Source: Falsiroseomonas stagni DSM 19981 | Lineage (GTDB): Bacteria; Pseudomonadota; Alphaproteobacteria; Acetobacterales; Acetobacteraceae | NCBI RefSeq assembly: GCF_900114315.1 | Contig: NZ_FOSQ01000002.1 | Location: 620,001-684,000, forward strand | Reading direction: 5' to 3' | Length of the DNA stretch: 64,000 nt | Position numbers and translations under genes: made by a program | The notes under the pieces: generated by a model | What the model was told of the DNA's origin: nothing | Database searches by the model: none | What the model saw: only the letters and a program-made list of their open reading frames with translations | Shown here: positions 1-31,082 of the stretch, in pieces | Layout: the number at the start of each line of letters is the position of its first letter | How positions within the stretch are numbered: the first letter of the stretch is position 1

Positions 1-571
1 AATTGAAGGCGTGCAGCACGTAGCGGATGCCGTAGCGCCGCATCCGCTGCGCGAAGGCGGCGGGATCGCCATTGATCGTCTCCGCATTCGCGAAGGCGCC
101 GCCCAGCACGATGTCCATCTCCGGATCGAGCGCGCGCAGCCGCTTCGCCACCCCGCCCACTTCCTTCCAGGAAAGGTAGAAGGTGGAGGAGATGCCGACC
201 AGCGGCGGCCGCCGGCAGTTCCGGTACGCCTCCTCGAACCAGTCCCACTCGCTGTCGAGGTTGTTGATGACCCGCACGCGATAGCCGAACTGGGCGAGGT
301 AGTTGATGAGGTGGACACCCGCCATGGAGGGCAGGTTCCAGATGTTCAGCATCTCCCGCCGCTGCTGCCAGTCGCCCTGCTCGAAGTAGCGGCCATGCAC
401 ACGGCGATTGATGTAGTCGAGGTGGGATCGGAAGCGCCCCTCATGCAGCACCATCCGGGGATAGACGAGGTGCTTGTAGAGGTCGCTGCGGTCCAGCGGC
501 AGGTTGCCGAAGCCCTCATAGTCCACGACATTGGACTGCGTGACCAGGATGAGGTCGAGCTGGTCATCCAT
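1..571 (-). CDS. B12-binding radical SAM protein, N-terminal part (truncated by window edge)
   Basis: The visible 190 residues form a cobalamin-binding Rossmann domain of the kind that precedes a radical SAM core. It has a helix resembling GVHLINYLAQFGY, a strand with VGISSTF, and a later VLGGAFAN strand-turn. Known family members methylate unactivated carbons or phosphorus, or remodel antibiotic precursors. The radical SAM CxxxCxxC core would lie beyond the left edge, so class and substrate cannot be read. The start is ATG at 571, which overlaps the TGA of the upstream MaoC gene (564-566). The two are therefore probably one minus-strand unit, divergent from the FkbH/PKS operon. Membership of the biosynthetic cluster is inferred from position only. 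Confidence 0.7.
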   Translation of the reverse strand, partial: MDDQLDLILVTQSNVVDYEGFGNLPLDRSDLYKHLVYPRMVLHEGRFRSHLDYINRRVHGRYFEQGDWQQRREMLNIWNLPSMAGVHLINYLAQFGYRVRVINNLDSEWDWFEEAYRNCRRPPLVGISSTFYLSWKEVGGVAKRLRALDPEMDIVLGGAFANAETINGDPAAFAQRMRRYGIRYVLHAFN

Positions 572-1010
572 GCGCGCCGGCCTCCGTGGTGAAACCGACG
601 GTCGCCTTGCCGCGCGCGACCACGGCGCCGGCTTCGTCCGTCGCCTCGATCCGCAGCACGAGGGAGCGCACGGCGTCCGACACCTGATCCACCGTTCCGG
701 CGACCGTCACCCGCGTACCCACGATCACCGGCGCAACGAAGGACATGTTGACCCCCAGCAGCAAGGCGTTCCGCCCGGGCAGGACCATCCCGATCAGGCG
801 GGAGACATAGCCCACCAGCAGCGCCCCATGCGCCACACGGCCAGCGAACCCACGGGATGTTGCGAAGCCGGCATCAACATGCAAGGGGCTGCGGTCCCCG
901 GTCAGCGCCGCAAAGCCGTCCACGGCGTCCAAATCCATGAGACACGTGATCTCCGCCCGATGCCCGGGGACGACGTCCTCGAACTGCAGAGCCGACGCTT
1001 CGGAGGCCAC
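564..1010 (-). CDS. MaoC-family (R)-specific enoyl hydratase
   Basis: About 148 residues with a single hotdog fold. The MaoC hydratase signature is visible as DxxxFAxLTGDxSPLHVD followed by a GFAGRVAHGALL segment; the Asp and His of these motifs are the usual catalytic pair. Family members reversibly hydrate enoyl-CoA or enoyl-ACP to the (R)-3-hydroxyacyl form. No ATG lies at the N-terminus. I chose GTG at 1010 because a GGGGAC stretch sits about 9 nt upstream; an in-frame TTG at 1082 would add 24 residues that look non-conserved. The stop overlaps the start of the B12-radical SAM gene. It is divergent from the FkbH gene and may serve the same pathway, but a housekeeping acyl-CoA role is possible. 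Confidence 0.8.
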   Translation of the reverse strand: MASEASALQFEDVVPGHRAEITCLMDLDAVDGFAALTGDRSPLHVDAGFATSRGFAGRVAHGALLVGYVSRLIGMVLPGRNALLLGVNMSFVAPVIVGTRVTVAGTVDQVSDAVRSLVLRIEATDEAGAVVARGKATVGFTTEAGAHG

Positions 1011-1138
1011 GCGATTCCAGTCCCCAGCTTGATTTCCTTGTGCCACGTTACGATCCCGCCGATCAAGCGCGACGCTTTGCAATGGAGTCCGGCGCAGATA
1101 TCCTGTACCGGAACATCGTGGAGGAAGGTCGGGTCAGG

Positions 1139-3004
1139 ATGCCCTTGGATACGATGGACCGCACCCGGGTGAAGGACGGCATCGCCCGTGCCCGCGCGGC
1201 CGTCGCCGAGGGCGATGTCCCGGCCGCCCTGGCCATCCTGCGCGCGACCATCGGGGCGGAGACGGATTTCCTCGACCAGCTTCGCGCAGCCCGGCTGACC
1301 AGCGGAATCGATGGCGCCGCCCACGGCCTCAGGCCGCTGCGCCTGGCCATCGCCGGCGCCACGACGCTCGATCACCTGATCCCGCCGCTGCAACTCTGGC
1401 TGACCCTGGCCGGCTTCGCGCCCGCCATCCACCTGGCCCCCTTCGACACCGCCACTGCCTCCATTCTCGATCCCGGCAGCGAACTCCACGCCTTCCGCCC
1501 CGATCTGGTCTGGCTCTTCACCACCCATCGCGACCACGACCTGGCTCTTGCCCCCGGCGCCACGCCGGATGCCGTCCGCGCCGCCGTCTCCCGCGCCGTC
1601 GCCGCCCGCGTCGCGCTGTGGGATGCGTTGCGGGCCCGGGGCTGCCTCGTGATGGAGAACAACGCGCCGGTGCCGGCGGATGACGCTGCCGGCAACCTGT
1701 CGGGCGCGGCCTCCTGGGGCGGTCGCACGGCGCTCCGCCTCCTCAATGCCGAACTCGCCTTCGCGGCACCATCCGGCGTCGTGCTGTTCGACCTGGATCA
1801 TGTCGCCGCACGGCATGGCCGCCGCGCCTGGCACGATCCGCGCTACTGGTTCCACTCCAAGCATGCGGTGGCGCCGGATGCGACCGGCGTGCTCGCCCAT
1901 GCCGCGGCCCGCCTCATCGCCGGCGCGCGGGGCCTCGCCCGCAAATGCCTGGTGCTCGACCTCGACAACACGCTCTGGGGCGGCGTCATCGGTGATGACG
2001 GGCTGGCCGGCATCGCGCTCGGCAGCGGCGCGGCCGGTGAGGCCTTCGTGGCCTTCCAGGCGCATGTGAAGGCGCTGAAGGACCGCGGCATCATCCTCGC
2101 CGCCTGCTCCAAGAACGAACCCGAGACTGCTGCCCTGCCCTTCCGCGACCATCCCGACACGGTGCTGCGGCTGGAGGATTTCGCCGTCTTCCGCGCGGGC
2201 TGGGGCAACAAGGCGGATGCGGTGCGCGATATCGCCACCACGCTCGACATCGGGCTCGATGCGCTGGTCTTCATCGACGACAACCCGATGGAGCGCGACA
2301 TCGTCCGCCAGCACCTGCCCGATGTCGCGGTGCCGGAGATGCCGGAGGACCCCGCCCACTACATCGCCGCCCTCGAAGCCGGCGCCTGGTTCGAGGCCAC
2401 GGGCTTCAATGCGGAGGATGCCGCCCGCACGCGCCTCTATGCGGAGAATGCGCAACGCGCGGAACACCGCGCCAGCTTCGTCGACATGCAAGGCTACCTC
2501 GCCAGCCTGGAGATGGTCGCCACCACCGGCGGCGCCGATGCCTTCCACCTCCCCCGCATCGCGCAGCTCATCGGCAAGAGCAACCAGTTCCACCTGACCG
2601 GCACGCGGCCGACGGAGGCCGAGATCGCCGCCCTGGCGCGCGATCCCGCCTGGACGGTGCTGCATATCCGCCTGCGCGACCGCTTCGGCGACAACGGCCT
2701 GATCGCCGCCCTGCTCCTCCACCAGCAGGGCCCGGACCTGCTCGTCCATACCTGGGCGATGAGCTGCCGAGTCCTGGCGCGCGGCATGGAGGAATTCACC
2801 GCCAACCTCATCCTCCGCGATGCAAGGCGCCGCGGCTGCACGCGCATCCTCGGCCGCTTCGTGCCCTCGGCGAAGAACCAGCTCGTCGCCGGCCTCTATT
2901 CCCGGCTCGGCTTCACCCTGGCCGGGGAGGAACAGGGCGCAAGCCTGTTCGCCGCCCCGGCGGATCGCGACCCCTGGCCCACCATGGTGCACCACGATGC
3001 CTGA
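1139..3004 (+). CDS. FkbH-like HAD-superfamily glyceryl-ACP loading enzyme
   Basis: About 621 residues. The HAD phosphatase motif I is clear (LDLDNTLWGGV, D274 and D276), followed by SKN and FIDDNPMER motifs. The C-terminal third resembles a GNAT fold, as in FkbH and its relatives. FkbH proteins take the C3 unit from 1,3-bisphosphoglycerate, dephosphorylate it and load it on an ACP as a PKS starter or extender; some homologues give lactyl units. The immediately overlapping free ACP gene (2997) fits as acceptor. Start choice: ATG at 1139 follows a GGTCAGG stretch. In-frame ATG 1082 and GTG 1040 exist upstream but would run into the divergent MaoC promoter region. Substrate is inferred from family. 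Confidence 0.88.
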   Translation: MPLDTMDRTRVKDGIARARAAVAEGDVPAALAILRATIGAETDFLDQLRAARLTSGIDGAAHGLRPLRLAIAGATTLDHLIPPLQLWLTLAGFAPAIHLAPFDTATASILDPGSELHAFRPDLVWLFTTHRDHDLALAPGATPDAVRAAVSRAVAARVALWDALRARGCLVMENNAPVPADDAAGNLSGAASWGGRTALRLLNAELAFAAPSGVVLFDLDHVAARHGRRAWHDPRYWFHSKHAVAPDATGVLAHAAARLIAGARGLARKCLVLDLDNTLWGGVIGDDGLAGIALGSGAAGEAFVAFQAHVKALKDRGIILAACSKNEPETAALPFRDHPDTVLRLEDFAVFRAGWGNKADAVRDIATTLDIGLDALVFIDDNPMERDIVRQHLPDVAVPEMPEDPAHYIAALEAGAWFEATGFNAEDAARTRLYAENAQRAEHRASFVDMQGYLASLEMVATTGGADAFHLPRIAQLIGKSNQFHLTGTRPTEAEIAALARDPAWTVLHIRLRDRFGDNGLIAALLLHQQGPDLLVHTWAMSCRVLARGMEEFTANLILRDARRRGCTRILGRFVPSAKNQLVAGLYSRLGFTLAGEEQGASLFAAPADRDPWPTMVHHDA

Positions 3005-3242
3005 CCGCGCGGCGATCCTCGAACGCCTGACCACCGTCTTCCGCGAGGTGTTCGAGGATGATGCCCTCACCATCGAGGACGCCACCACGGCGGACGACAT
3101 CGATGAGTGGGACAGCCTCCAGCACATCGTGCTGGTGCTGGCGGTGGAGCGGGAGTTCAAGGTCCGCCTGAACCCCGCCGAGGTCGGCAAGCTCGAGAAT
3201 GTCGGCGCCATGGCCGATTTGCTGGCTGCCCGCGCCGCATGA
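2997..3242 (+). CDS. stand-alone acyl carrier protein
   Basis: 81 residues with the 4'-phosphopantetheine attachment motif EWDSLQH around the modified Ser, a normal length for a free ACP. The ATG overlaps the last codons of the FkbH gene, and its TGA overlaps the ATG of the next gene, so translation is probably coupled. FkbH enzymes commonly use a dedicated free ACP, which makes this the likely carrier of the glycerate-derived starter. Its WDSL motif is closer to the ACP fused to the P450 downstream than to the GLDSLM motif of the three PKS ACPs, suggesting two ACP types in the pathway. Confidence 0.9.
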   Translation: MPDRAAILERLTTVFREVFEDDALTIEDATTADDIDEWDSLQHIVLVLAVEREFKVRLNPAEVGKLENVGAMADLLAARAA

Positions 3243-4387
3243 TGCGCCTGCTGAGCCCGAACGAGACGAAGTTCTGGCTGCTGGACCAGGTGGCGCCGAC
3301 CAACAGCATCGTCGTCCTGCAACGCCGATCGGCGGGCTTTCCCACCCAGGCGCCGCCGGGCTTCGACATCCCCGTCGCCCGCATCGGCCGCCGCGGCCGC
3401 CCGCGCTGGTCGGCGGCCACCACGCCGGGCGTCATCCGCCGCGTGACGCTCACCGCCGAAGCCGATTGGGTCGGGATCGCGGAACAGCTTCTCGACGCCC
3501 GCATCGGCACCGATGACAACCCGCCCTGGGAGGCTGTGGTCGCCGATCATCCCGGCGGCCAGACGCTGCTGCTCGCCGTCAGTCATGCGCTGACGGATTA
3601 CCGCACCGCGCTCGCCCTCGGCCGCGCCTTCGCGGAGGGCACGCCCGTCGGCGACCTCGCCCCGGCCTGCGAGGAATTGCTGCCCGACCGCGTCTTCGGG
3701 GATGAGGATGCCGGCGCGTTGATCGAGGGCTGGTGGTCGGACCGTGCCGGCGCGCGGTGGGAGGCACTCGGCCCCTCGCGCCTCACCGCCATCCTGCCGC
3801 CGGCATCCCGCACGCGCCTCACGCTGCATCGCTACGACGAAGCGGAGACGGCCCGCATCCTCGATCGCTGCGAGGCAGAGGGCGCCAGCCTCAGCAGCGC
3901 GCTTGCCATCGCGCTGCGCGATGCGGCGGGCACGGATGCCTGCGCCTTCTCCGTCGATCTCAGCCGCTTCATTCGTCCGGCCCTGCCCGCCGGCCCGGGC
4001 ATGGCCATCAGCCATGTCCATGCCGACCTCGCACCGGGCGATTTCTGGGAAGCCGCGCGCGACAACCGCGCCGTGGTCTTCGAACGGATCGAGGCCGGTG
4101 AGGCCGGCGACAGCCTCCTCATCCTGCCCCGCCTGCTGCAACGCCCCGGCACGCCGCCCGCCTGGCGCCGCTCCGGCCTCACCATCACCGGCGCCCCCAC
4201 CTGGCGCGCGGCCGGGGAGGACGGCTACGACCTCCAGCTCGTGCTCAGCGCCGCGCGCGCGGGCGGCGGCGTGGTGATCCCGACGCTATGGCGGGGGCAG
4301 TTGCAGCTGCTCGGCTGTTCGCCGGAAGACGATGTCGCCATGCCCCTCGCGCCCCTCGCGGCGGCGCTCCTGCGCGCCTGCGACTGA
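3239..4387 (+). CDS. condensation-like (PapA/C-domain fold) acyltransferase
   Basis: About 382 residues of the CoA-dependent/ACP-dependent acyltransferase superfamily (NRPS condensation domains, PapA5, BAHD). The catalytic HxxxD motif is seen as SHALTD, with H116 and D120. The DFG-type structural motif is not obvious in the C-terminal half. Such stand-alone proteins transfer an acyl group from an ACP to an alcohol or amine. Here it overlaps the free ACP by 4 nt and precedes the megasynthase by 19 nt, so it could esterify or offload the FkbH-loaded unit, or move it to the PKS. Which it does cannot be told from sequence. Confidence 0.75.
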   Translation: MMRLLSPNETKFWLLDQVAPTNSIVVLQRRSAGFPTQAPPGFDIPVARIGRRGRPRWSAATTPGVIRRVTLTAEADWVGIAEQLLDARIGTDDNPPWEAVVADHPGGQTLLLAVSHALTDYRTALALGRAFAEGTPVGDLAPACEELLPDRVFGDEDAGALIEGWWSDRAGARWEALGPSRLTAILPPASRTRLTLHRYDEAETARILDRCEAEGASLSSALAIALRDAAGTDACAFSVDLSRFIRPALPAGPGMAISHVHADLAPGDFWEAARDNRAVVFERIEAGEAGDSLLILPRLLQRPGTPPAWRRSGLTITGAPTWRAAGEDGYDLQLVLSAARAGGGVVIPTLWRGQLQLLGCSPEDDVAMPLAPLAAALLRACD

Positions 4388-4406
4388 CCGGAACGGAGCG
4401 CGCCCG

Positions 4407-14956
<10,550 letters not shown>

Positions 14957-14960
<4 letters not shown>

Positions 14961-16408
14961 CCGGCTGCCCCGTGCATTTCGACCTGCTGGACCCTGCCAT
15001 CCAGGCGGACCCGCACGCCGCCTATGCGGCGCTCCGCCAGCATTCGCCGGTGCATCGCCTCGACCGCCCGCCGATGTGGCTGGTGACACGGCATGCGGAT
15101 GTGGAGGCGGTGCTGCGCGATGCCGCGACCTACGCCTCCGACCTCGGCATGGACGTGCCGATCATGTCCATGGTGATGAAGGACGCGCCGGACCACACGC
15201 GGCTGCGCGGCACGGTCAACAGGGCCTTCACGCCGCGCGCCATCCAGCATTTGGCCCCCCGCATCACCGCCATCGCGGAGCAACTGGCGGCAGCGCTGCC
15301 CGACCGCGCGGAGATGGTGGAAGGCTTCGCCAACCCGCTCTCCGTCACCGTGATCTGCGAGATGCTGGGCGTGCCGCTCGACCAGCGGGATGCCCAAAGG
15401 GATGCGATGAACCGCTATGCCCGCGACGCCCTGCTGGCCGGCTTCGCCGCCACCGGCATGGGGCCGCCCGAATTGCTGGCGGAAGCGCGCATCGGCCTCG
15501 ACGCGCTGATGCGCATCCTCGACACGGCCATCGAGGATCACCTGGCAAACCCGCGCGACGACATCCTCGGTACCCTGGTGCAGGAGGAAAGCCGGGGCAC
15601 GCTGACGCGCGTGGAACTGCGCAACCTCTGCGCCCTGCTGCTGATCGGCGGGCATGAGACGACGGCCAACCTGATCGCCAGCGGCCTGCACTGGCTGGCG
15701 CAGGACGCCGCGCTCCTCACCCGCCTGCGCGCCCAGCCCGACCTCATCCCCCGCTTCGTCGAGGAGTTGGCCCGGCTGCGCCCGCCCCTGCAGCGCATCG
15801 CGCGCCGCACGACCCGGGCCGTGACGCTGGGCGGCACGCCGCTGCCGGAAGGCGCCATGCTCATGCTCTTCCCCGGTGCCGCGAACCGCGACGAGGCCCG
15901 CTGGCCCGATGCCGATACGCTTGACCTCGCGCGCGACAATCGCGGCCATCTCGGCTTCGGCACGGGCATCCACACCTGCCCCGGCGGTCCGCTCGCGCGG
16001 CTGGAGGCCCGGATCGCCTTCGAGGCGCTGCTGGCGCGCCTCGATGGCATCGCACTCGACCCCGCCCGCCCTGCGCGGCCCATCGTCGGCTACGCCGCGG
16101 GCAATCTCGGCTGGAACACACTCCCGCTGCTGTTGAGGAAACGCATGAGGCCCGTCATGGTGGAGGATGTCTTCGCGACGCTGCGCGCGCTGGTGGCGGA
16201 GACGCTGGAGATCGAGGAAGCCGACATCGATCGCACGACCAACGCCAAGACCACGCCGGAATGGGATTCGCTCGGCCATATGCGCATCCTGGCGGCGGTG
16301 GAGAAGCGCTTCGGCGTGAAGCTCCCGCGCCTCGCCGCCTATCGCGTCAAGGATGTGGGCGAGCTGGCGGCGCTGATCGAAACGACGCAGTCGCAGGCGG
16401 GCGCCTGA
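14957..16408 (+). CDS. cytochrome P450 fused to a C-terminal acyl carrier protein
   Basis: 483 residues in one uninterrupted frame. The P450 part (about 1-395) has the I-helix GGHETT with the oxygen-activating Thr235, ExxR in EELARLR, and the heme loop FGTGIHTCPGG with C341. The last 85 residues are an ACP with EWDSLGH (S438). ATG 14957 overlaps the megasynthase TGA by 4 nt. P450s that hydroxylate substrates tethered to carrier proteins are known, usually acting in trans on a PCP or ACP. A covalent fusion suggests that the acyl or aminoacyl substrate is presented on the enzyme's own carrier. An internal ATG near 16145 could give a free ACP as well. The N-terminal region is typical of bacterial class I P450s, so a separate ferredoxin is needed. 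Confidence 0.88.
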
Positions 16409-17634
16409 TGTCCGGCCTGCGGCGGACGGTCTTCCGCCCGCTCGATCCCGATTTCGTCGAGGATCCCTACCCCACCTATGACCGCCTGCGGCGGGAACAC
16501 CCGATCGGCTGGGCCACCACGCCCGCCCAGGGCTATGCCGGCTTCTGGTTCGTCAGCCGCTATGCCGACGTCAATGCCGGCCTCAAGGATGACCGCTTCG
16601 GGCGGGAGGTCGCGAAGGTCCTGCCGCCGGAAGCCTTCGTGCCGATCCTGGAAGCGCATCGCCCGCTCTACGCCATGATCGCGCAATGGATGCTGTTCAA
16701 GGATCCGCCCGACCATGCGCGGCTCCGCCGCATCGCCGCCCCCGTCTTCGCGCTGCGCCAGGTCAACGCCATGCGCCCGCGGATCGAGGCGCTGATCGAG
16801 GCCGCCTTCGCGCAGGTGCCGGAATACGGCCCCTTCGACATCATCTCCGACTTCTCCTCCCCGCTCTCGATCGACATCGTCTCCGACCTCATGGGCGTGC
16901 CGGAGGAAGACCATCCGCTGGTGCGCGGCTGGGTGCGGGAGATCACGCTCTCCCTCGACCTGGTGCGCACCCCCGAACGCATCGCCGCCGGCAGCCGCCG
17001 CGCGGCCGAACTCGTCGCCTATTTCGGCGCGCTGGTGTGCGCGCGCCGCGCGAAGCCGAAGGATGATTTCCTCGGCCTGCTCATCGCCGCGCATGACGCC
17101 GGCAGCTTCCTGACGGAGGAGGAGTTGCTCGCCTCCTGCGTCCTCTTCCTCTTCGCGGGGCATGAGGCGTCGTCGCTCCTCATCGGCAACGGGCTGCATG
17201 CGCTGGCGCAGAATCCGGCCGAATATGCGCGGCTCCGCGCCGGCGAGACGCAGGGCCGGCTCGTGGTCAGCGAATTGCTGCGCTACGACAGCCCGCAGCA
17301 GATCGCCTTCCGCCATGCGCTGGAGGATGTCGATTTCCTCGGCGTGTCCATCCGCCGCGGCCAGACGGTGGGCTTCGGCCTCGGCTCCGCGAACCGGGAC
17401 CCCGATATCTTTGCCGATCCCGATCGCCTGGACCTGTCGCGCCAGGAAACCCGCCACCTCGCCTTCGGCGCCGGCATCCATACCTGCGCGGGATCGAGCC
17501 TGGCGAATATCGAGGCGGAGATGGTCTTCGCCGTGATCGCCAGGCGCTTCCCGCGCATCGAGATCATCGCGGCGCAGCGGCAGGAAAGCATCCTGGTGCG
17601 CGGCCTGACGCGCCTCGTCATCGATTGCGGCTGA
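16408..17634 (+). CDS. cytochrome P450 (EryF-like I-helix)
   Basis: 408 residues, normal length for a soluble bacterial P450. The heme loop is FGAGIHTCAGSS (C360) and ExxR is seen in SELLRYD. The I-helix reads AGHEAS: the usual Thr is Ala254 with Ser255 next, the same pattern as P450eryF (AGFEAS), which relies on a substrate hydroxyl for proton delivery. ATG 16408 overlaps the previous TGA. It is the last gene of the biosynthetic operon, convergent with the IclR gene whose stop lies 7 nt beyond. A late oxidation on the released product is likely, but timing and site are not readable. Confidence 0.9.
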   Translation: MSGLRRTVFRPLDPDFVEDPYPTYDRLRREHPIGWATTPAQGYAGFWFVSRYADVNAGLKDDRFGREVAKVLPPEAFVPILEAHRPLYAMIAQWMLFKDPPDHARLRRIAAPVFALRQVNAMRPRIEALIEAAFAQVPEYGPFDIISDFSSPLSIDIVSDLMGVPEEDHPLVRGWVREITLSLDLVRTPERIAAGSRRAAELVAYFGALVCARRAKPKDDFLGLLIAAHDAGSFLTEEELLASCVLFLFAGHEASSLLIGNGLHALAQNPAEYARLRAGETQGRLVVSELLRYDSPQQIAFRHALEDVDFLGVSIRRGQTVGFGLGSANRDPDIFADPDRLDLSRQETRHLAFGAGIHTCAGSSLANIEAEMVFAVIARRFPRIEIIAAQRQESILVRGLTRLVIDCG

Positions 17635-17640
17635 GCGCCC

Positions 17641-18432
17641 TCACAGCAGCAGCGGCGATGCCTCCGCCGCCTCCTGCAGGAGGCGCGGCAGCCAGCGCGC
17701 GCGGAACGCCTCCCCTGTCTCGCCCTCCATCGGCATGCCGATATTGAGCGCGGCCACCACCCGCCCATCCTGCCGCGGCAGCGGCACGGCCAGCGACCGG
17801 AAGCCCAGTTCCGCCTCCTGCTCCACCAGCGCATGGCCCTCCGCCCGCGCGGCCGCCACCAGGTCCTGCAGCCGCGCCGGATCCGTCTCCGTCCGCGGCG
17901 TCACCGGGAAGGGGCGCAGCGCGGCCGCACTCTCCGCTTCCGGCAGATGCGCCAGCAGCACGCGGCCGAGCGCCGTGCAGAAGGCCGGCAGCCGGCTGCC
18001 GACCATGGTGGAGACGTTCAGCATCAGCCGCGGCCGCCCATAGGCCACGAAGACGATCTCCGCGCCATCCAACACCGCCGCCGAACAGGGCCCGCCCGCC
18101 TCCGCCGCCAGGCGCTCGCACAGCGGTTGCAGCACGGTGGAGACGCCGCTGGCGCCCAGGTAGCCCGCCGCCAGGCGCAGCACCCGCGGTGTCAGCCGGA
18201 ACAGCCTTCCGTCGCTTTCCACATGGCCGAGCACCACCAGCGTGTGCAGCGCGCGCCGCACGGTGGCGCGGGGAAGGTCAACGGCCCGCGCGACCTCCGC
18301 CAGCGTCATCTGCCGGCGCTCCGGCCCGAAGGCCTGCAGCACGGCCAGGCCGCGTGCCAGCGCCTCCAGGAAATCGGCGCCATGGCCGGCCTCCCGCCGC
18401 CGCGCGGCATGTTCCTCCCCGATCCGGGGCAT
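17641..18432 (-). CDS. IclR-family transcriptional regulator
   Basis: 263 residues. An N-terminal winged helix (about 20-85, with TLAEVARAVDLPRATVRRAL as recognition unit) is followed by a GAF-like effector domain, the layout of the PcaR/PcaU/PobR branch that senses aromatic acids. The start at 18432 is chosen over an ATG at 18480 because GGAGGG sits 4 nt upstream of it. It is divergent from the Rieske oxygenase gene, which it probably controls. A 15-bp imperfect palindrome in the shared 93-bp intergenic region is a candidate site. Confidence 0.88.
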   Translation of the reverse strand: MPRIGEEHAARRREAGHGADFLEALARGLAVLQAFGPERRQMTLAEVARAVDLPRATVRRALHTLVVLGHVESDGRLFRLTPRVLRLAAGYLGASGVSTVLQPLCERLAAEAGGPCSAAVLDGAEIVFVAYGRPRLMLNVSTMVGSRLPAFCTALGRVLLAHLPEAESAAALRPFPVTPRTETDPARLQDLVAAARAEGHALVEQEAELGFRSLAVPLPRQDGRVVAALNIGMPMEGETGEAFRARWLPRLLQEAAEASPLLL

Positions 18433-18489
18433 GGGCCCTCCAACTCTGTCTTGCCGGTTCGTCCGGGCGCGCTCTATCATCGCACAAGC

Positions 18490-18504
18490 GTTCGGTCAGT
18501 GAAC
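18490..18504. promoter_or_regulatory. candidate IclR operator (GTTC-N7-GAAC)
   Basis: An imperfect 15-bp palindrome with GTTC and GAAC ends lies between the IclR and Rieske genes, 22 nt before the GTG of the latter. Its length and ends resemble the 15-bp operators of PcaU-type regulators, which begin GTTCG. The match is by eye only, and chance occurrence is possible. Confidence 0.35.
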
Positions 18505-18525
18505 ACCTGTCCAGGAGTCACGCCC

Positions 18526-19848
18526 GTGATCAGTGCGGAGCAGAATGAACGGCTGACCCGGGTCGGCCCTGGCACCCCGGGCGGGAAGGTTCTGCGCCAC
18601 TACTGGCAGCCCATCGCACTGGTGGATGAGCTGGAGGGCAGGCGCCCCGTGCGCCCCGTCCGTGCGCTCGGCCAGGATTTCGTGCTGTTCCGGGACGAGG
18701 CAGGCCGCATCGGCCTGCTGGACCGGGACTGCCCGCACCGCAACGCCGACCTGGCCTTCGGGCGGCTGGAGGATGGCGGGCTGCGTTGCCCCTTCCATGG
18801 CTGGCTTTTCGACGTGACGGGGAAATGCCTGGAGACGCCGGCGGAGCCCGAGGGCAGCACGCTCTGCACCCGCATCAAGCAGCGCAGCTACCCGGTCGAA
18901 ATCCGCAGCGGCATCGTCTTCGCCTATCTCGGCGAGGGTGCGGCGCCCCCCTTCCCCGCCTTCGACTGCTTCGCGGCGCCGGACACCCACACCTTCGCCT
19001 TCAAGGGCCTGATCGAGTGCAACTGGCTGCAGGCGCTGGAGGTCGGCATCGACCCCGCCCATGCCAGCTTCCTGCATCGCTTCTTCGATGATGGGGACGA
19101 GAAGGAGAGCTATGGCAAGCAGTTCCGCGCCACCAGCGACGGATCGGATTTGCCGATGACCTATGTGCTGCGCGAATTCCCGCGCCCGCGGATCGAGGTG
19201 GACAACACCCCATACGGCCTGCGCGTCACCGCGCTGCGGTCCATCAACGATGCGACGACGCATGTGCGCGTCACGAATTTGTTCTTCCCCCAGGCCTTCG
19301 TCATCCCGATGAGTGCGGAGATGACCATCACCCAGTGGCACATGCCGGTGGATGACACGCGCTGCTACTGGATCGCCATCTTCACCAGCTTCGCCGGCCC
19401 CGTGGACCGCGCCCGCATGCGCGCGCAGCGTCTGGAGAACTACTCGCTCCCCGACTACCTGCCGAAGAAGGGCCGCCAGAACGACTACGGCTTCGATGCC
19501 GAGGAGCAGGCCAGCAAGACCTACACAGGCATGGGCGAGGATATCAACGTCCACGACCAATGGGCCGTCGAATCGCAGGGCGCCATCCAGGACCGCACGC
19601 GGGAGACGCTGGCCAGCAGCGACAAGGCCATCGCCGCCAATCGCCGCCTGCTGATGCGCGCCATGGCGGCCGTCGAGGAAGGCAAGCGCCCCGCGCTGCT
19701 CCAGGAGGACGCGACGGCGGACCTGACGGGCCCCGGCACCATCGACACCATGGCCCCTGCCGCGAATTGGGAAACCCATTGGCGCCAGGCCGTGGAACGC
19801 CGCCGCGGCGCCGCCCCCTGGGCACCGCCCGCCCTCGCCGCCGAATGA
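18526..19848 (+). CDS. Rieske non-heme iron oxygenase, phthalate 4,5-dioxygenase family
   Basis: 440 residues. The Rieske [2Fe-2S] ligands are C69-P-H71 and C88-P-F-H91. The mononuclear iron site follows in the IDPAHASFLH segment. The sequence layout matches the phthalate dioxygenase/vanillate demethylase group, single-component-type oxygenases that accept electrons from a separate reductase; no reductase is encoded nearby. Start is GTG 18526, with AGGAG about 9 nt upstream. Its TGA overlaps the ATG of the glutamine-synthetase-like gene, so the two act in one pathway, probably on an aromatic or amide-bearing compound imported by the ABC system downstream. Confidence 0.9.
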   Translation: MISAEQNERLTRVGPGTPGGKVLRHYWQPIALVDELEGRRPVRPVRALGQDFVLFRDEAGRIGLLDRDCPHRNADLAFGRLEDGGLRCPFHGWLFDVTGKCLETPAEPEGSTLCTRIKQRSYPVEIRSGIVFAYLGEGAAPPFPAFDCFAAPDTHTFAFKGLIECNWLQALEVGIDPAHASFLHRFFDDGDEKESYGKQFRATSDGSDLPMTYVLREFPRPRIEVDNTPYGLRVTALRSINDATTHVRVTNLFFPQAFVIPMSAEMTITQWHMPVDDTRCYWIAIFTSFAGPVDRARMRAQRLENYSLPDYLPKKGRQNDYGFDAEEQASKTYTGMGEDINVHDQWAVESQGAIQDRTRETLASSDKAIAANRRLLMRAMAAVEEGKRPALLQEDATADLTGPGTIDTMAPAANWETHWRQAVERRRGAAPWAPPALAAE

Positions 19849-21269
19849 GCTTTTGCGAGACCCACGGCCTGCATTCGGCCGAAGCCCGCGCGGAAGTCCT
19901 CGACCGCATCGCGGAAGACGGCATCGAGGTGGTGCGCCTGGCCTGGCCCGACCAGCACGGTATCCTGCGCGGCAAGACGATCGTGGCCAGCGAGGTCGCG
20001 CGCGCCCTCGAATCCGGCGTCGCGATGACGACGACGCTGCTGCTGAAGGACACGTCGCACCGCACCGTCTTCCCGGTGTGGAGCGCCGGCGGCGGCCTTG
20101 GCGAACGTGCACTCGAAGGCGCCGCCGACGCGCTGCTGATCCCGGACCCCGCCAGCTTCCGCCGCCTGCCCTGGGCGCCCCATACCGGCTGGATGCAGTG
20201 CGAGGCCTACTACCCCGATGGCCGCGTGGTCCCCTTCTCCACCCGCCATCTCCTGAAGCAGCAGATCGCGAAGGCGGAGGCGCTGGGCTTCGACTACGTC
20301 ACGGGCCTCGAGGTCGAATTCCACCTGTTCCGCGTGACGAATCCCCGCATGGCGCCGGAGGATTCCGGCCAGCCCGGCACGCCGCCCGATGTCTCCCTGC
20401 TGACGCAGGGCTACAACTACCTGACCGAGCTTCGCTACGACCAGCTCGACCCCGCGCTGGAAATCCTGCGCAAGGAAATCCAGGCCCTCGGCCTGCCGCT
20501 GCGCTCCATGGAGGTCGAGTTCGGCCCGAGCCAGGTGGAGTTCACCTTCGCCGCACAGGATGCGCTGGCCAGCGCGGATTTGATGATCCTGTTCCGCTCC
20601 GCGGTTAAGCAGGTGGCGCGCCGCCACGGCTACCACGCCACCTTCATGTGCCGCCCGCGCATCCCCAACGTGATGAGCAGCGGCTGGCACCTGCACCAAT
20701 CCCTGAAATCCCGCGCCACCGGCCGCAACGTCTTCGCGACCGATGGCAACGGCCTGCTGTCACCGACGGCGAAGCACTTCCTCGGCGGCCTGCTCGCGGA
20801 AGCCCGCGCGGCGGCCGCCTTCGCGACGCCGACGCTGAACGGCTACCGCCGCTACCGCCCCAACAGCCTGGCGCCGGACCGCGCCATCTGGGGCATCGAC
20901 AATCGCGGCGTCATGCTCCGCGCCCTCGGCACGCCCGGCGATGCCGCCACGCGGATCGAGAACCGCGTCGGCGAACCCGCGGCCAACCCCTATCTCTACA
21001 TGGCCTCGCAACTCGCCTTCGGCCTGCACGGCATCGCGACGCAGGCGGACCCCGGCCCGCCCGCCGACACCCCCTACGAAACCCAGGCCGCCCCCCTGCC
21101 GCGCAACCTGGCGGAGGCGCTGGCGGCGCTGGAGGCCAGCACCGTCGCGCGCGAATCCTTCGGCGATGCCTTCATCAACTACTACCTCCGCCTCAAGCGC
21201 GCGGAGATCGCCCGGTTCGAGGCCGAGGTCTCGGAATGGGAACAGCGGGAATACTTCGAATTGTTCTGA
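19845..21269 (+). CDS. glutamine synthetase-like ligase (gamma-glutamylation family)
   Basis: 474 residues with the GS catalytic barrel: EVEFHLF and MEVEFGPSQVEF carry metal-binding glutamates, SGWHLHQS the active-site His, and the YRRYRPNS/IENR segments the glutamate and ATP contacts. The adenylylation Tyr region of GlnA is not recognisable. Proteins of this type join glutamate to amines (PuuA, aniline-type GlnA4 homologues). Pairing with a Rieske oxygenase recalls gamma-glutamylanilide synthase in aniline degradation, but the oxygenase here belongs to a different subfamily. The 4-nt overlap with the oxygenase gene indicates translational coupling. Confidence 0.87.
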   Translation: MSFCETHGLHSAEARAEVLDRIAEDGIEVVRLAWPDQHGILRGKTIVASEVARALESGVAMTTTLLLKDTSHRTVFPVWSAGGGLGERALEGAADALLIPDPASFRRLPWAPHTGWMQCEAYYPDGRVVPFSTRHLLKQQIAKAEALGFDYVTGLEVEFHLFRVTNPRMAPEDSGQPGTPPDVSLLTQGYNYLTELRYDQLDPALEILRKEIQALGLPLRSMEVEFGPSQVEFTFAAQDALASADLMILFRSAVKQVARRHGYHATFMCRPRIPNVMSSGWHLHQSLKSRATGRNVFATDGNGLLSPTAKHFLGGLLAEARAAAAFATPTLNGYRRYRPNSLAPDRAIWGIDNRGVMLRALGTPGDAATRIENRVGEPAANPYLYMASQLAFGLHGIATQADPGPPADTPYETQAAPLPRNLAEALAALEASTVARESFGDAFINYYLRLKRAEIARFEAEVSEWEQREYFELF

Positions 21270-21311
21270 GGGCGGAAAACGCCGCACGGCTTTCCCTGAT
21301 CGGAAGAAACG

Positions 21312-22085
21312 ATGCGGTTCCTGGAACTGGATGAGGTCACGAAGGAATACCCCACGCGCGGCGGCAAGCCGGCGCGCGTGATGGATCGCGTCTCGCTTTC
21401 CGTGGAGGAGGGCGAGTTCCTCGCGGTGCTGGGCCCTTCGGGATGCGGCAAATCCACCTTGTTGCAGATGGCGGCAGGGCTTCTGCCCGCCACCAGCGGC
21501 AGCGTGCGCCTGGCCGGCCGCGCCGTCACCGCGCCGCCGCCCGAAGCCGTCTATGTCTTCCAGCAATACAGCCGTTCCCTGCTGCCCTGGCGCAGCGTGC
21601 GGGACAATGTCGCCTTCGCCACCGAACACCGCCTCGGCCGCCGCCGCGCGCGTGAGGCCGCCGAGGAACCTTTGAAACAGGTCGGCCTCGATGGCTTCGG
21701 CGACCACTTCCCCTGGCAGTTGTCGGGCGGCATGCAGCAGCGCGTCGCCATCGCCCGCGCTTTGGCCGCGGGACCCGCGATGCTGCTGATGGACGAGCCC
21801 TTCAGCGCAGTGGACGCGCTGACGCGGCTCGACCTGCAATCGCTGGTCCTCGACATCTGGTCCCGCCGCCGCCTGACCATCATGCTCGTGACGCATGATG
21901 TGGAGGAGGCGATCCAGCTCGCCGACCGAATCGTCGTGCTGACGAACCGCCCGACCACGGTGGCGGAGGAGATCAAGGTCGCCCTCCCCCGCCCACGCGA
22001 CCCCATCGCGACGAGGGAGCATCCGCGTTTTCTCGAGCTGCGCCACCATCTGCTGGACAAGCTGCTGGCGCGCCATGCGGGTTGA
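21312..22085 (+). CDS. ABC transporter ATP-binding protein, nitrate/sulfonate/taurine type
   Basis: 257 residues. Walker A GPSGCGKST, Q-loop in VFQQYSRS, signature LSGGMQQR, Walker B LLMDEPF and the H-loop THDVEEA are all present. It belongs to the SsuB/TauB/NrtD group that energises import of small organic anions or pyrimidine precursors. It overlaps the first permease gene by 11 nt. With the binding protein and two permeases it forms an importer that presumably feeds the Rieske/GS pathway. Confidence 0.93.
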   Translation: MRFLELDEVTKEYPTRGGKPARVMDRVSLSVEEGEFLAVLGPSGCGKSTLLQMAAGLLPATSGSVRLAGRAVTAPPPEAVYVFQQYSRSLLPWRSVRDNVAFATEHRLGRRRAREAAEEPLKQVGLDGFGDHFPWQLSGGMQQRVAIARALAAGPAMLLMDEPFSAVDALTRLDLQSLVLDIWSRRRLTIMLVTHDVEEAIQLADRIVVLTNRPTTVAEEIKVALPRPRDPIATREHPRFLELRHHLLDKLLARHAG

Positions 22086-22836
22086 ACGGCTGCTCTCGCC
22101 GCTACCGGGCCTGCTGGTGCTGGCCGCGCTGCTGCTGGGCCTTGAATGGGCCGTCGATGCCGGCCTCATCCGGCGCGCGCTGATGCCCGCGCCCAGCACC
22201 ATCGCACTGCGGCTGTGGGACCTGCTGGAGGCCGGCGATGTGTGGGCGCCGATGATGCAGACGCTGCGCCTGGTCTTCACCGGCTTCGCCATCGGCAGCG
22301 CCATCGGCATCGCAGCCGGCCTGGCCATGGGGTGGTGGCCCGCGGTGTTTCGGCTGCTGGAGCCGCTGGTGGAACTCATCCGCCCGATTCCGAAATCCGC
22401 GCTGGTGCCGCCGCTGATGCTCTTCCTCGGCATCGGCTTCACCATGAAGGTCACCTCCGTCGCGCTCGTCGTCACCTTCCCCGTGCTGGTGAACACCTTG
22501 CAGGGCGTGCGCGGTGTGGACCGCGTGATGCTGGATGCCGCGCGCACCCATGGCTGGCCCGCACGCCACACCCTGCTGCACCTGGTCCTGCCCGCAGCCC
22601 TGCCGCTGGTCCTGGCCGGCATGCGCATCAGCCTCGGCCTCGCGATGGTGCTGGCCGTGCTGTCGGAGATGCTGGCCGGGGAGGGCGGCCTCGGCTTCCT
22701 CATCCTCGACATGCAGCGGAGTTTCCGCGTGCGCGACATGTATGCCTGGCTGGTGATCCTCGCCGTGCTGGGCCTCGCGCTGAACTGGCTTTTCGTCCTC
22801 GCCGAACGTCGCGCGCTGCATTGGCAGCGCCGCTGA
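22075..22836 (+). CDS. ABC transporter permease 1, SsuC/TauC type
   Basis: 253 residues with about six membrane helices. The cytoplasmic EAA-like loop is seen as LDAARTHGWPARHTLLHLVLP, the coupling site to the ATPase. The family imports sulfonates, taurine, nitrate, bicarbonate or thiamine precursors. It starts inside the ATPase gene and precedes the binding protein by 14 nt. Confidence 0.92.
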   Translation: MRVERLLSPLPGLLVLAALLLGLEWAVDAGLIRRALMPAPSTIALRLWDLLEAGDVWAPMMQTLRLVFTGFAIGSAIGIAAGLAMGWWPAVFRLLEPLVELIRPIPKSALVPPLMLFLGIGFTMKVTSVALVVTFPVLVNTLQGVRGVDRVMLDAARTHGWPARHTLLHLVLPAALPLVLAGMRISLGLAMVLAVLSEMLAGEGGLGFLILDMQRSFRVRDMYAWLVILAVLGLALNWLFVLAERRALHWQRR

Positions 22837-22850
22837 ACAGGAGAACCCGC

Positions 22851-23816
22851 ATGAGCCTCACTCGCCGCACCGCCCTCGCCGCCGCGCTCGCGACACCGCT
22901 CGCGGCACCTGCCTTCGCGCAGGGCGCCCTCACCCGCATGCGCGTCAGCGTCATCCCCGTGCTGGACGTCGCGCCGCTGCACGCCGCCATCCGCGAAGGC
23001 TATTTCGCGGCGGAGGGGATCGAGATCGACACCTCCACCACCGCCGGCGGCGCCACCGGCCTGCCGGGGCTCGTCGCTGGCCAGTTCCGTGTCGTCTTCT
23101 CCAACGTCGTCTCCATCATGCTCGGCGTGCGGGAGGGTCTCGATTTCCGCTTCGTCTCCGGCGCCTCCCGCGCCAAGTCCAGCCCGCCGGACATCCTGGC
23201 GCTGCTGGTGCGCAAGGGCAGCGGCATCGCCAGCGGGCGGGACCTGGAGGGCAAGCGCCTGGCCTCCAACACCCGCAACAACATCGTCTGGCTGCGCGGC
23301 ATGGCCTGGGTGGAGAAGACCGGCGGAGACTGGCGCCGCGTCACCACCGTCGAAGTCCCCTTCCCCCAGATGGCCGATGCCCTGGCCGGCGGCCAGGTCG
23401 ATGCCGCGATCTTCTCCGAGCCCTTCGTCGCCGCCGCCCTCGAAACCCATGGCGACCGGCTGGAGCGCATCGGCTGGCCGATGAGCGAGACGGCGCCTGG
23501 CGGCACCAACGCGCAATACGTCGCCATGGCCGATGACCTGGCCCGCAACGGCGAATTGTTCGACCGTTTCGGCCGCGCGCTGCACAAGGGCGTGGACTGG
23601 GTGAACGAACGCCAGGGCCAGCCGGCGCTGCTGGAACTGATCTCGGCCTTCTCCCGCGTCCCCCTCGCGCGCCTGCAGAACACCGCGCTGCCCGCCTACC
23701 CCAAGGCGGTCACCCCGGCGGAGCTGGATGAGATCGTCGCGACCATGACGCGCTACGGCCTCGGCGGCCGCTACCCCGCCAGCGCGTCCCTCATCTTCCG
23801 CACCGCCCGCGGCTGA
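22851..23816 (+). CDS. ABC transporter substrate-binding protein, SsuA/ThiY-like
   Basis: 321 residues. An N-terminal signal peptide with a twin-arginine-like start (LTRRTALAAAL) ends near AFAQG, so the mature protein is periplasmic. The rest is a type II periplasmic binding fold of the NMT1/THI5-like group, with an early HAAIREGYFAAEGIE segment and the FSEPFVAAAL hinge. AGGAG lies 8 nt upstream of ATG 22851. The ligand is unknown; the neighbouring oxygenase and GS-like enzymes suggest an aromatic or amine-containing substrate. Confidence 0.9.
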   Translation: MSLTRRTALAAALATPLAAPAFAQGALTRMRVSVIPVLDVAPLHAAIREGYFAAEGIEIDTSTTAGGATGLPGLVAGQFRVVFSNVVSIMLGVREGLDFRFVSGASRAKSSPPDILALLVRKGSGIASGRDLEGKRLASNTRNNIVWLRGMAWVEKTGGDWRRVTTVEVPFPQMADALAGGQVDAAIFSEPFVAAALETHGDRLERIGWPMSETAPGGTNAQYVAMADDLARNGELFDRFGRALHKGVDWVNERQGQPALLELISAFSRVPLARLQNTALPAYPKAVTPAELDEIVATMTRYGLGGRYPASASLIFRTARG

Positions 23817-26941: not shown

Positions 26942-27094
26942 CGGTCCGAATCGTCGCGGCAGCGCCGCCCGCCGTCAACGGCAGCCCCTCACGCCGCGCG
27001 AAAAGCCGCTCCGGCCGCATGCAAACATTGACCTGCCGCCACCCTGCCCGCAGATCGCCGTGGAACTGCCGCATGGCGGAAGGATTCAGTGCGC

Positions 27095-28138
27095 ATGTCC
27101 ACGCAACTCGCCGCCCGCCCTCCCCTGGCCGCCGCCCCCGGCCCGGCCCCCGCCCCGATCCGGCCCGCAGAGGCGCGCCCCGTCCTCTCGGTCGTGGTGC
27201 CCGCCTATAATGAGCAGGAGGTCCTGCCCAGCTTCCACGCCCGGCTCGCCCCGGTGATGGAGGCGATCGGCCTGCCCTGGGAGGTCGTCTATGTGAATGA
27301 CGGCAGCCGGGACCGCACGCTGACGATCATGGAGGGGCTGAAGGCCGCCGACCCCCGCGTCGCGCTGGTCAATCTCAGCCGCAATTTCGGCAAGGAGATC
27401 GCGCTGACCGCGGGGCTCGACCACGCCGCCGCGACGGACGCGGTCATCGTCATCGATGCCGATCTGCAGGACCCGCCGGAGGTGATCCCGGACCTCGTCG
27501 CCGCCTGGCGCCAGGGCTTCGACGTCGCCTATGCAAGGCGCCGGGCGCGGGAAGGCGAGACCTGGCTGAAGAAGGCGACGGCCAAGGCCTTCTACCGGGT
27601 GATGCAGAAGGTCGGTGGCAAGGTGGAGCTGCCCGCCGATACCGGCGATTTCCGCCTGATCAGCCGCCGCGCGCTGGATGCGCTGCTGTCGCTGCGGGAA
27701 CAGCACCGCTTCATGAAGGGCCTCTTCGCCTGGGTCGGCTTCCCCTCCACCCCCGTGCTGTATGACCGCGCGCCGCGCGCGGCGGGGGAGACGAAGTGGA
27801 ACTACTGGCGGCTCTGGAACCTGTCGCTGGAGGGTATCACCGCCTTCACCGTCGGGCCGCTGAAGGTCGCCACCTATCTCGGCCTGTTCACCGCCATCGT
27901 CGCGGGCATCTACGGCCTCCAGCTCATCATCCGCACCATCCTCTTCGGCAACCCGGTCGCGGGCTATCCCAGCCTGATGGCGGTGGTGCTGTTCCTGGGC
28001 GGCGTGCAGCTGATGACGCTCGGCATCATCGGGGAGTATCTCGGCCGCGTCTTCAATGAGACGAAGGGCCGCCCCCTCTACATCGTCGAACGCCACGCGC
28101 CGAGCGAATCACCGGATCAGCGACAGACGACGAGCTGA
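27095..28138 (+). CDS. GtrB-type family 2 glycosyltransferase (bactoprenol sugar transferase)
   Basis: 347 residues. An Ala/Pro-rich leader is followed by a GT-A domain (SVVVPAYNEQEV, then DADLQDPPE carrying the metal-binding Asp) and two C-terminal membrane helices (about 270-330) ending in GRVFNETKGRPLYIVE, the layout of GtrB/ArnC/DPM-like enzymes. These load glucose or another sugar onto undecaprenyl phosphate. ATG 27095 is preferred, but a GTG at 27089 lies closer to the GGAAGGA ribosome site. The 3' end overlaps the convergent DUF6311 gene by 22 nt, a pairing that suggests GT-C partner function. Confidence 0.9.
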   Translation: MSTQLAARPPLAAAPGPAPAPIRPAEARPVLSVVVPAYNEQEVLPSFHARLAPVMEAIGLPWEVVYVNDGSRDRTLTIMEGLKAADPRVALVNLSRNFGKEIALTAGLDHAAATDAVIVIDADLQDPPEVIPDLVAAWRQGFDVAYARRRAREGETWLKKATAKAFYRVMQKVGGKVELPADTGDFRLISRRALDALLSLREQHRFMKGLFAWVGFPSTPVLYDRAPRAAGETKWNYWRLWNLSLEGITAFTVGPLKVATYLGLFTAIVAGIYGLQLIIRTILFGNPVAGYPSLMAVVLFLGGVQLMTLGIIGEYLGRVFNETKGRPLYIVERHAPSESPDQRQTTS

Positions 28139-29772: not shown

Positions 29773-29808
29773 ACGCCAAGGCCCTTACGCTGCCAGCCCC
29801 GAACCTTG

Positions 29809-29991
29809 CTAGAGGAGGCTGGCGAGCCCGGCCCAGAACAGCGCGGAGGCCAGGACCGCAATCGCGATCCCCCGTGCCGGGGTGCCCTGTTCCGGCCTCG
29901 CCAGCGGGCGCCAGGGCTCGAAGCGAACAGGCCTCGGCGGGCTGGGTACCGGGCCTCTTCGGCCCTCCATCGTCTGCGGGTACTGGCTCAT
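29809..29991 (-). CDS. small single-pass membrane protein, hypothetical
   Basis: 60 residues: a Pro/Arg-rich cytoplasmic half, then one hydrophobic helix (GIAIAVLASALFWAGLASLL) at the C-terminus. It lies 36 nt upstream of the DUF6311-like gene on the same strand. No clear ribosome site precedes ATG 29991. It may be a small partner of that protein; the call rests on the well-formed helix and its placement. Confidence 0.45.
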   Translation of the reverse strand: MSQYPQTMEGRRGPVPSPPRPVRFEPWRPLARPEQGTPARGIAIAVLASALFWAGLASLL

Positions 29992-30272
29992 GGCGAAACT
30001 GTGGCACGGCCCGCCATGAAGTGCCCCCGAAAAGCGCGCGAGGAGCGAAATTTCAATGACTCCCCGCCAGATTGCCGCGCCGCCACAATCTCGCCCCAAC
30101 CGCGTCTCAAACCCGCCCGTCAGTAAGGCTAACCCTTACCGTCGAAGGAGCGGTCCTGACGATCGATCCGCCCGCCAATCGAGGCCCGATCGCCTCGCCC
30201 AGCGGCCGGAAAGGTCCCGGATCGGACCCACTCAACCCTGAAGCGGCCCCCCCGCCGCACCACGAGGACCTC
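29992..30272. promoter_or_regulatory. divergent control region of the polysaccharide locus, with a 17-bp inverted repeat
   Basis: This 281-bp gap separates the minus-strand small membrane protein from the plus-strand sugar transferase. It contains a perfect inverted repeat at 30123-30139 (GTAAGG, 5-nt spacer, CCTTAC) about 135 nt before the start of the transferase. This could be a protein-binding site or an early leader hairpin. No convincing coding frame or further motif was seen. Confidence 0.4.
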
Positions 30273-31022: not shown

Positions 31023-31046
31023 CACTCCCCCCAGCAACCCGCATTC

Positions 31047-31075: not shown

Positions 31076-31082
31076 CATAGGG

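Follow-up and report, generated by a model that had tools for sequence, protein, structure and literature searches.

The yersiniabactin protein HMWP1 carries a polyketide synthase (PKS) module that opens with a ketosynthase (KS) domain, followed by a heterocyclization (Cy) domain, a C-methyltransferase and a thioesterase (TE) that releases the chain. According to a legend in PMC9547227, the methyltransferase of this synthase targets C2 of a cysteinyl or malonyl unit. The model for thiamyxin, in the accessible text of PMC10100342, assigns methylthiazolines to modules with a C-methyltransferase (cMT) and thiazole formation to a module type with an oxidation domain, together with a P450 and a TE. 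FkbH and a condensation (C) domain are paired with a PKS in the foxicin cluster (PMC5318452), and bacillamide assembly by BmdB/BmdC includes an oxidase of solved structure (PMC8795117; PDB 7ly4-7ly7). Here we describe a stretch of 64,000 nucleotides from Falsiroseomonas stagni DSM 19981 (contig NZ_FOSQ01000002.1 of 775,845 bases, positions 620,001 to 684,000 of the forward strand; hereafter the window) that carries the hybrid PKS and nonribosomal peptide synthetase (NRPS) g9 and its companion genes. The window likely holds the downstream end of one large hybrid polyketide/nonribosomal-peptide line, which would end in thiazoline formation, methylation, release and tailoring.

Although the pathway type is familiar, the reshuffling of ring-finishing domains among relatives of this locus is unusual. 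Foxicin, thiamyxin, lyngbyapeptin and yersiniabactin were each set aside as matches, sharing only part of the logic. Unlike HMWP1, g9 has an adenylation (A) domain in the same protein, has lost its acyltransferase (AT), carries three acyl carrier proteins (ACPs) and has a methyltransferase (MT) after the TE. Thiamyxin differs in being mainly peptide with GNAT-type loading, and the word FkbH is absent from the main text of its paper (PMC10100342). In foxicin, a single Streptomyces PKS protein contains both FkbH and C as domains, and the available text of PMC5318452 names no heterocyclization domain.

An earlier note on this DNA described a compact pathway with a single PKS module. Its seven parts (FkbH, a free ACP, a C-like protein, an AT-less PKS module, a Cys-type heterocyclizing module, a P450-ACP fusion and a second P450) were all located at the positions it gave, in open frames, and, over the whole cluster, the domains read as a modular PKS-NRPS hybrid (contiguous KS modules and Cy/A/PCP modules, TE and active-site motifs). 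The compact appearance, however, is a cut made by the window edge, and the stretch is not a complete pathway. The boundary is wrong: upstream of the window the contig carries a further nine KS domains and a second Cy-A module, all on the strand of g9, leaving one KS domain and one Cy-A module to the window. With negative coordinates denoting bases upstream of the window start on that contig, the hybrid cluster spans about -54.6 to +17.6 kb and contains 10 KS domains and 2 Cy-A modules. The whole assembly-line locus covers roughly 80,000 bases, of which the window carries the 3' part, and an IclR-family gene is its probable 3' edge. The G+C content of the window, in 2-kb steps, is 69-77%. The genes and sites of the locus are as follows, r9 being the counterpart of g9 in a Rhizobiaceae-group genome.

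-61795: RND-like gene (so labeled for its length and for a 32% match with the neighbor of r9)
Between the RND-like gene and TEII: HlyD, ABC1 kinase and DUF6312 genes
-57529 to -55571: ABC1-type kinase gene
-54612: TEII
g1: ACP-KS-AT-cMT-KR-ACP-KS-DH-ER-KR-ACP
-45168 to -38332: g2, with KS, ER (present as a fragment only), KR, ACP and a second KR-like domain after the ACP
g3: KS-AT-MT-like-cMT-KR-ACP
g4: KS-DH-KR-ACP
-28719 to -24985: g5, TubC docking-Cy-A-oxidase remnant-PCP
g6: KS-DH-cMT-ER-KR-ACP
g7: KS-DH-cMT-KR-ACP-KS-DH-ER-KR-ACP
g8: KS-AT-DH-cMT-KR-ACP
-3810 to -3337: orf157, stand-alone oxidase-like protein of 157 aa
Between orf157 and the radical SAM gene: UbiE/CMAS-like MT, then MBOAT
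571 down to -1051, reverse strand: PhpK-like radical SAM gene, whose 5' (N-terminal) part, 1..571, lies in the window
564..1082, reverse strand: MaoC-like hydratase/dehydratase (PF01575, E 6.6e-15; start codon uncertain)
1139 or a nearby start to 3004, forward strand: FkbH (HAD-type C3-acyl transferase/phosphatase)
About 2997..3242, forward strand: free ACP with a DSL motif (PF00550, E 9.3e-5; start read from sequence)
3239..4387, forward strand: stand-alone C-like protein, with the H-x3-D motif as HALTD
4407..14960, forward strand: g9, 3.5-kaa megasynthase (longest open reading frame from 4332)
9339..9956, forward strand: three tandem ACPs of g9 (residues 1670-1875 of the frame from 4332)
12700..12740, forward strand: site in the g9 A domain without the oxidase-like insert (about 163 aa in three sister species)
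14388..14882, forward strand: C-methyltransferase of g9 after the TE, grouping with A-embedded MTs of two distant homologues
14957..16408, forward strand: P450 with a fused C-terminal ACP (PF00067, E 2.3e-24; PF00550, E 2.2e-7)
16408..17634, forward strand: second P450 (PF00067, E 7.7e-24)
17641..18480, reverse strand: IclR-family regulator (PF01614, E 3.4e-28)

The domain order of g9 is KS - AT deleted - DH - C-MT - KR - ACP-ACP-ACP - Cy - A - PCP - TE - C-MT; the earlier note did not list the triplet of tandem ACPs, the TE or the methyltransferase that follows the TE. Intact motifs comprise DTACSSS in the KS, DLIALDAAS in the Cy domain (D-x4-D-x2-S), and ANVLHAT and ASSALHAA in the two C-methyltransferases. 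The KS motif departs from DTACSSS in the first KS of g1 (NTACSSA) and in g6 (QTACSSS), with the Cys retained in both. The AT of g9 is gone, yet linker sequence like both AT flanks remains, and post-AT-like linker sequence is also retained in several other AT-less modules. This loss is probably old because the g9 homologs of a Rhodanobacteraceae metagenome-assembled genome (MAG) and of the Rhizobiaceae-group genome lack the AT too; both have two tandem ACPs as compared with three in g9. The A-domain residues at what we take to be the specificity positions, read by eye, are DLWNMSLIW in g9 and DLYNLSLIW in the MAG, presumably a Cys-type code. Across the cluster, AT domains occur in g1, g3 and g8 only, leaving seven of the ten KS modules without one, so that the cluster departs from a cis-AT PKS with an AT in every extension module. 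A genome-wide search gave six AT matches, namely these three, two in long frames on other contigs and a sixth, on another contig, in a 331-aa stand-alone protein of FabD size. It found no discrete AT gene in or near the cluster, and a trans-AT PKS, judged by such a gene, was rejected.

The locus is conserved well beyond F. stagni. A contig pattern scan yielded five loci from 32 pattern matches, and the sister loci in the Acetobacteraceae come from a pond MAG, Roseomonas ponticola SYSU M41301 and Falsiroseomonas algicola PeD5. All three are collinear with the window at 85-88% DNA identity as far as the sister loci extend (about window position 13,900). Between a point about 6.8 kb upstream of the window and the insert site at 12,712, 19.5 kb of every sister locus align at 85.9-86.8%. 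PKS sequence with the same genes lies upstream of FkbH in each. Six compared window gene products, the ACP included, are 80-96% identical to those of the sisters, with 95-96% for the second P450; the MaoC-like protein reaches 80-81% and the radical SAM product 96-97%. For the latter, the ortholog in locus L002 matches PF04055 (E 9.3e-24), and the gene scores 369.6 bits against TIGR04479 (E 1.9e-110), under the cut-off of 600. Pairwise dN/dS is 0.05-0.30 for the five genes tested (FkbH, C-like, g9, P450-ACP and P450), and the sister collinearity together with these low ratios rules out chance or an annotation artifact.

One of these clusters is very probably in print already. A 2021 survey reports a hybrid cluster in Roseomonas algicola PeD5 that combines two NRPS with several PKS modules and includes two efflux genes; it counts fourteen modules, the two NRPS modules being flanked by seven PKS modules, and its available text gives neither coordinates nor product (PMC8776678). 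The strain name and composition point to the cluster described here, which F. algicola PeD5 holds at about 86% DNA identity, although the module count in that text disagrees with our domain count. The novelty claimed for the pathway therefore stands insofar as no characterized match was found where we searched, and falls insofar as a sister cluster has been published, without a product. Among the matches listed in open-access literature (titles and abstract openings), none names a product of this cluster.

A near-collinear homolog, r1-r9, is present in the Rhizobiaceae-group genome (CANMVS010000014.1; G302), where TEII, r1-r6, ABC1, a C-like gene and an IclR-family gene lie on one strand and r7-r9 are divergent. 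The modules of g1-g9 nearly all have a direct counterpart there. With three KS modules in r1 as against two in g1, the total comes to eleven KS, and r6 retains the AT missing from g6. Relatives of the RND, HlyD, ABC1, DUF6312 and TEII genes share 23-42% identity, and the IclR-family gene there sits beside the C-like gene, its orthology to the window gene not being established. Both genomes have an ABC1-type kinase gene beside the cluster (L057:16096-18015 in the Rhizobiaceae genome), perhaps serving self-protection or a link to quinones. In a KS tree confined to the family, pairings were recovered for g9/r9/MAG (1.000), g1a/r1a (0.999), g6/r6 (0.998) and g7b/r7b (0.916). The Rhodanobacteraceae MAG carries g8-MT-P450-g9 on a 12,006-base contig whose ends truncate g8 and g9, and its counterpart of the P450-ACP fusion is a P450 without the ACP. 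A second MAG contig has FkbH, ACP and C-like genes contiguous, the last truncated.

The FkbH protein of the window is a full family member (TIGR01686, 269.2 bits, above the cut-off of 146.65) and matches PDB 3slr (E 9e-62). Its C-like neighbor has no Pfam or NCBIfam family at E 0.001, Pfam Condensation included. Its AlphaFold model (m2f54d9fc0e38), of modest quality (pLDDT 62.9, pTM 0.70), has a C-domain fold, with the dehydratase AzeD (8s6l, E 1.4e-15) as the top Foldseek match, followed by E/C domains, WS/DGAT, PapA5 and SgcC5; many C and E domains match at probability 1.00 with TMq of about 0.35-0.58. Fold and H-x3-D motif together, given the modest model, suggest that the protein belongs to the NRPS condensation-domain superfamily. 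The C-like protein matches 1 of 299 genomes of the family, 1 of 398 of the phylum and 4 of 15 of the genus, 1 of 297 in the family of G302 and 1 of 299 in the order of genome G303, each of these being F. stagni, one of its three sisters or the genome used as seed, and the plasmids searched gave no match. The cluster family is rare among the genomes searched.

Relatives of g9 differ in where the last MT sits: r9 and the MAG protein carry it within the A domain, whereas all four Falsiroseomonas-type proteins, g9 of the window included, have it behind the TE. A tree built from 17 MT domains nonetheless clusters the terminal MTs of the window, one sister (R300), r9 and the MAG at 0.996, with the g1 cMT as neighbor (0.771) and the other PKS cMTs elsewhere; the best solved relative is the CurJ methyltransferase (PDB 5thy, E 7.4e-33). 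Where r9 carries this MT, g9 of the three sisters has an oxidase-like insert of 163-165 aa, which the window species, alone among the four Falsiroseomonas-type genomes, lacks while keeping the surrounding A domain. The insert shows dN/dS of 0.31-0.43 as compared with 0.13-0.21 for the whole of g9 in the same three sisters, as for a sequence under weaker constraint. The MT grouping, the missing insert and the published analogies point to a methylthiazoline-4-carboxyl end, and the thiazoline rather than thiazole terminus proposed in the earlier note thereby gains positive though indirect support; its methylation step holds as well.

The full assembly line can be sketched with module order taken as chain order. 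From the content, extent, near-collinearity, MT grouping and insert loss observed above, we infer this order, the ring chemistry, the tailoring order and the C3-acyl role as follows. Chain growth would start in g1, about 54 kb before the window, on a loading ACP that has no AT. It would proceed through nine KS modules and a single Cy-A module, the latter with the order Cy-A-oxidase remnant-PCP and a thiazole as its probable product. By gene order, the KS of g9 would take the chain from g8, and g9 would add a C-methylated unit and then a second cysteine, which Cy would close to a thiazoline. The terminal C-methyltransferase, relocated from inside A to behind the TE, would methylate the ring alpha carbon and so block aromatization of the last ring. 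The TE would release a (4-methyl)thiazoline-4-carboxylic acid or a macrocycle, and decoration would fall to the two P450s, the PhpK-like radical SAM protein, MBOAT, MaoC, the FkbH-ACP pair and perhaps the C-like protein.

Several observations weigh against this sketch. No product is known for the cluster, and how the seven AT-less modules are loaded is unexplained with no discrete AT in the cluster. The homolog r1-r9 counts eleven KS domains, not ten, and the KS domains of g1b, g2, g3, g4, g7a and g8 are not sister to their positional partners in the tree; for these, collinearity is judged from the order of the genes and their domains. Several KRs of cMT-bearing modules (those of g3, g6, g8 and g9, and of r6 and r8) have His at what we take to be the catalytic Tyr place (QANH, QAAH, QGAH), where those of g1 (second), g2, g4 and g7 (second) have Tyr. 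The DH motif of g9 (about residue 636 of the frame from 4332) reads HRIEDQAILP versus HRIEGQ-x-ILP in the three sisters, a G to D change that could possibly reflect recent loss of DH function in the window species. The redox state of the chain is uncertain because of these KR and DH changes. An MT behind the TE is unusual, and the terminal MT of the MAG is a fragment truncated by a contig end (92 positions matched). In the sisters the terminal MT and the oxidase-like insert occur together, which makes either a thiazole or a methylthiazoline conceivable for them.

FkbH, the free ACP and the C-like protein admit several roles. The three genes adjoin one another directly before g9 and are contiguous in the MAG as well, which would fit a self-contained pathway in which FkbH places a C3 unit on the ACP, the C-like protein passes it to the g9 KS, and one methylated extension, cysteine cyclization, release and P450 oxidation follow. 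We regard this as highly improbable and rejected it on the upstream KS modules and the sister collinearity beyond the window edge: the nine further KS domains share strand and contig with g9, the g9 KS is orthologous to that of r9 in an eleven-KS homolog whose genome yielded no FkbH, and the genes between g8 and g9 in the MAG are an MT and a P450, not FkbH. The C3 starter on the free ACP and its transfer to the PKS, as first proposed, are thus unsupported. Alternatively, the C-like protein could take a C3 unit, glyceryl or one related to it, off the free ACP and pass it to the loading ACP at the start of g1. Both g1 and r1 start with an ACP-like stretch and no AT before it (GLTSL and GMTSH; weak, 32 and 14 bits), and the C-like protein occurs in all three lineages and FkbH in two of them. 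This route is doubtful, however, since the three genes adjoin g9, far from g1, and the Rhizobiaceae genome, of completeness not known, has the loading ACP and the C-like protein and gave no FkbH match; the C-like protein there seems FkbH-independent, unless the assembly is incomplete. On the same match result, FkbH was rejected as the general loader of this cluster family, so that of its proposed role as loader the family assignment holds and the starter step is not secured.

DltB-class proteins take acyl groups from a carrier protein, and the MBOAT of the locus resembles DltB (TIGR04091, E 9.1e-45, 153.5 bits, below the cut-off of 375). FkbH and the ACP might accordingly supply a C3 acyl group for a hydroxyl of the finished product, attached by the MBOAT or by the C-like protein, whose model resembles the ester-forming WS/DGAT and PapA5 as well as C domains. 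We put this forward tentatively and rate it a little above starter loading; no acceptor is known, a search of 120 kb of the Rhizobiaceae contig gave no MBOAT match, and the best fold match of the C-like protein is the dehydratase AzeD. A further alternative concerns the ring itself: orf157, which is BmdC-like, could oxidize the terminal ring to a thiazole in trans, the terminal MT then being a carboxyl O-methyltransferase. The sisters' oxidase-like insert in g9 is in keeping with this. It is nevertheless unlikely, given that the insert is missing in the window species and fast-evolving in the sisters, and that the MT groups with A-embedded MTs and has a C-MT, that of CurJ, as its best solved relative. 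A methylthiazoline end to the large assembly line remains the preferred reading.

The most novel feature lies outside the window, where an oxidase appears to be divided into complementary cis and trans halves, in g5 and orf157. The embedded oxidase of r5 carries the full motif set (RRSIRQY, YRYPSAGSAYPV, AIVPLYG and GLCPVG) and a Pfam nitroreductase match. The insert of g5 keeps RRSVRRF and GLGLCAIG and lacks the middle part, and orf157 has YRYASAGTLYPVQ (the YASAG loop) and AIEPVYG and lacks RRSxR; the FMN-binding RRSxR, YxSAG loop and active-site Tyr are thus not united in either chain. The L002 copy of orf157 matches the r5 oxidase (32% over 161 aa, E 2.7e-17) and BmdC by sequence (7ly5, E 1.9e-7), and its weak AlphaFold model (pLDDT 53.9) matches the BmdC fold (7ly4, E 6.6e-10, TMq 0.68). 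An alignment search of six genomes found orf157 in the four Falsiroseomonas-type genomes, r5 itself in the Rhizobiaceae genome, one extra weak match in genome G301 (E 0.007, in a frame with a stop) and none in the MAG.

In BmdC, a complete homodimer, one protomer provides Arg145, Arg146, Ser147, Arg149, Asn236 and Gly294 and the other the backbone contacts of residues 182-186, as given in the accessible text of PMC8795117; orf157 lacks the arginine-serine segment. Taking residue roles from that paper and matching counterparts by eye, complementary halves are plausible because the FMN site of BmdC draws on both protomers. We suggest, with some reserve, that the Falsiroseomonas thiazoline oxidase may be an obligate cis/trans heterodimer, in which the g5 remnant would supply the FMN-phosphate arginines (RRSxRxF) and the GLC-x-IG end, and orf157 the partner loop (YASAG) and the active-site tyrosine, jointly rebuilding one flavin site. 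The sisters' g9 insert would then be a second copy of the cis half, which the window species would have shed, fixing its last ring as a C-methylated thiazoline. Against this, both halves carry further deletions, and conservation is lacking where, by eye, the counterpart of Asn236 should lie. The arginine motif is RRTIRRF in two sisters and RQSHRHF in the g9 insert of one sister, and contact between orf157 and g5 is only presumed. The dN/dS of orf157 (0.19-0.29) and the g5 insert (0.23-0.28) is somewhat above that of the whole of g5 (0.15-0.19), which was compared in two of the three sisters, the third contig ending before g5. Among the matches listed in open-access literature (titles and abstract openings), none names a split cis/trans NRPS oxidase; if the proposal holds, the remnant of a megasynthase and a separate protein would here reconstitute a flavin site.

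The one-module reading is thus corrected to a large line found in scattered Acetobacteraceae, one Rhizobiaceae-group genome and one Rhodanobacteraceae genome. Searches by mass can thus target the predicted product class, a methyl-branched polyketide bearing two sulfur rings. The relatives also form a natural series for cis/trans movement of ring-finishing domains, comprising four close genomes, of which three have the oxidase insert and one does not, a distant pair whose MT lies inside A, and a single oxidase that is still embedded and intact.

Downstream of the IclR-family gene, a Rieske oxygenase, a glutamine-synthetase-like gene and NMT1-type ABC transporter genes (18495-23816) follow in the window and in the three sisters, probably as a neighboring catabolic operon. 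Six genes scanned at 27089-35681 comprise four glycosyltransferases, one bacterial sugar transferase and one polysaccharide-synthesis membrane protein, probably an exopolysaccharide cluster. Farther along, the window encodes a type VI secretion system IcmF-type protein (49161-52661) and a protein in which WD40 repeats are joined to a caspase-like (Peptidase_C14) domain (60937-63891).

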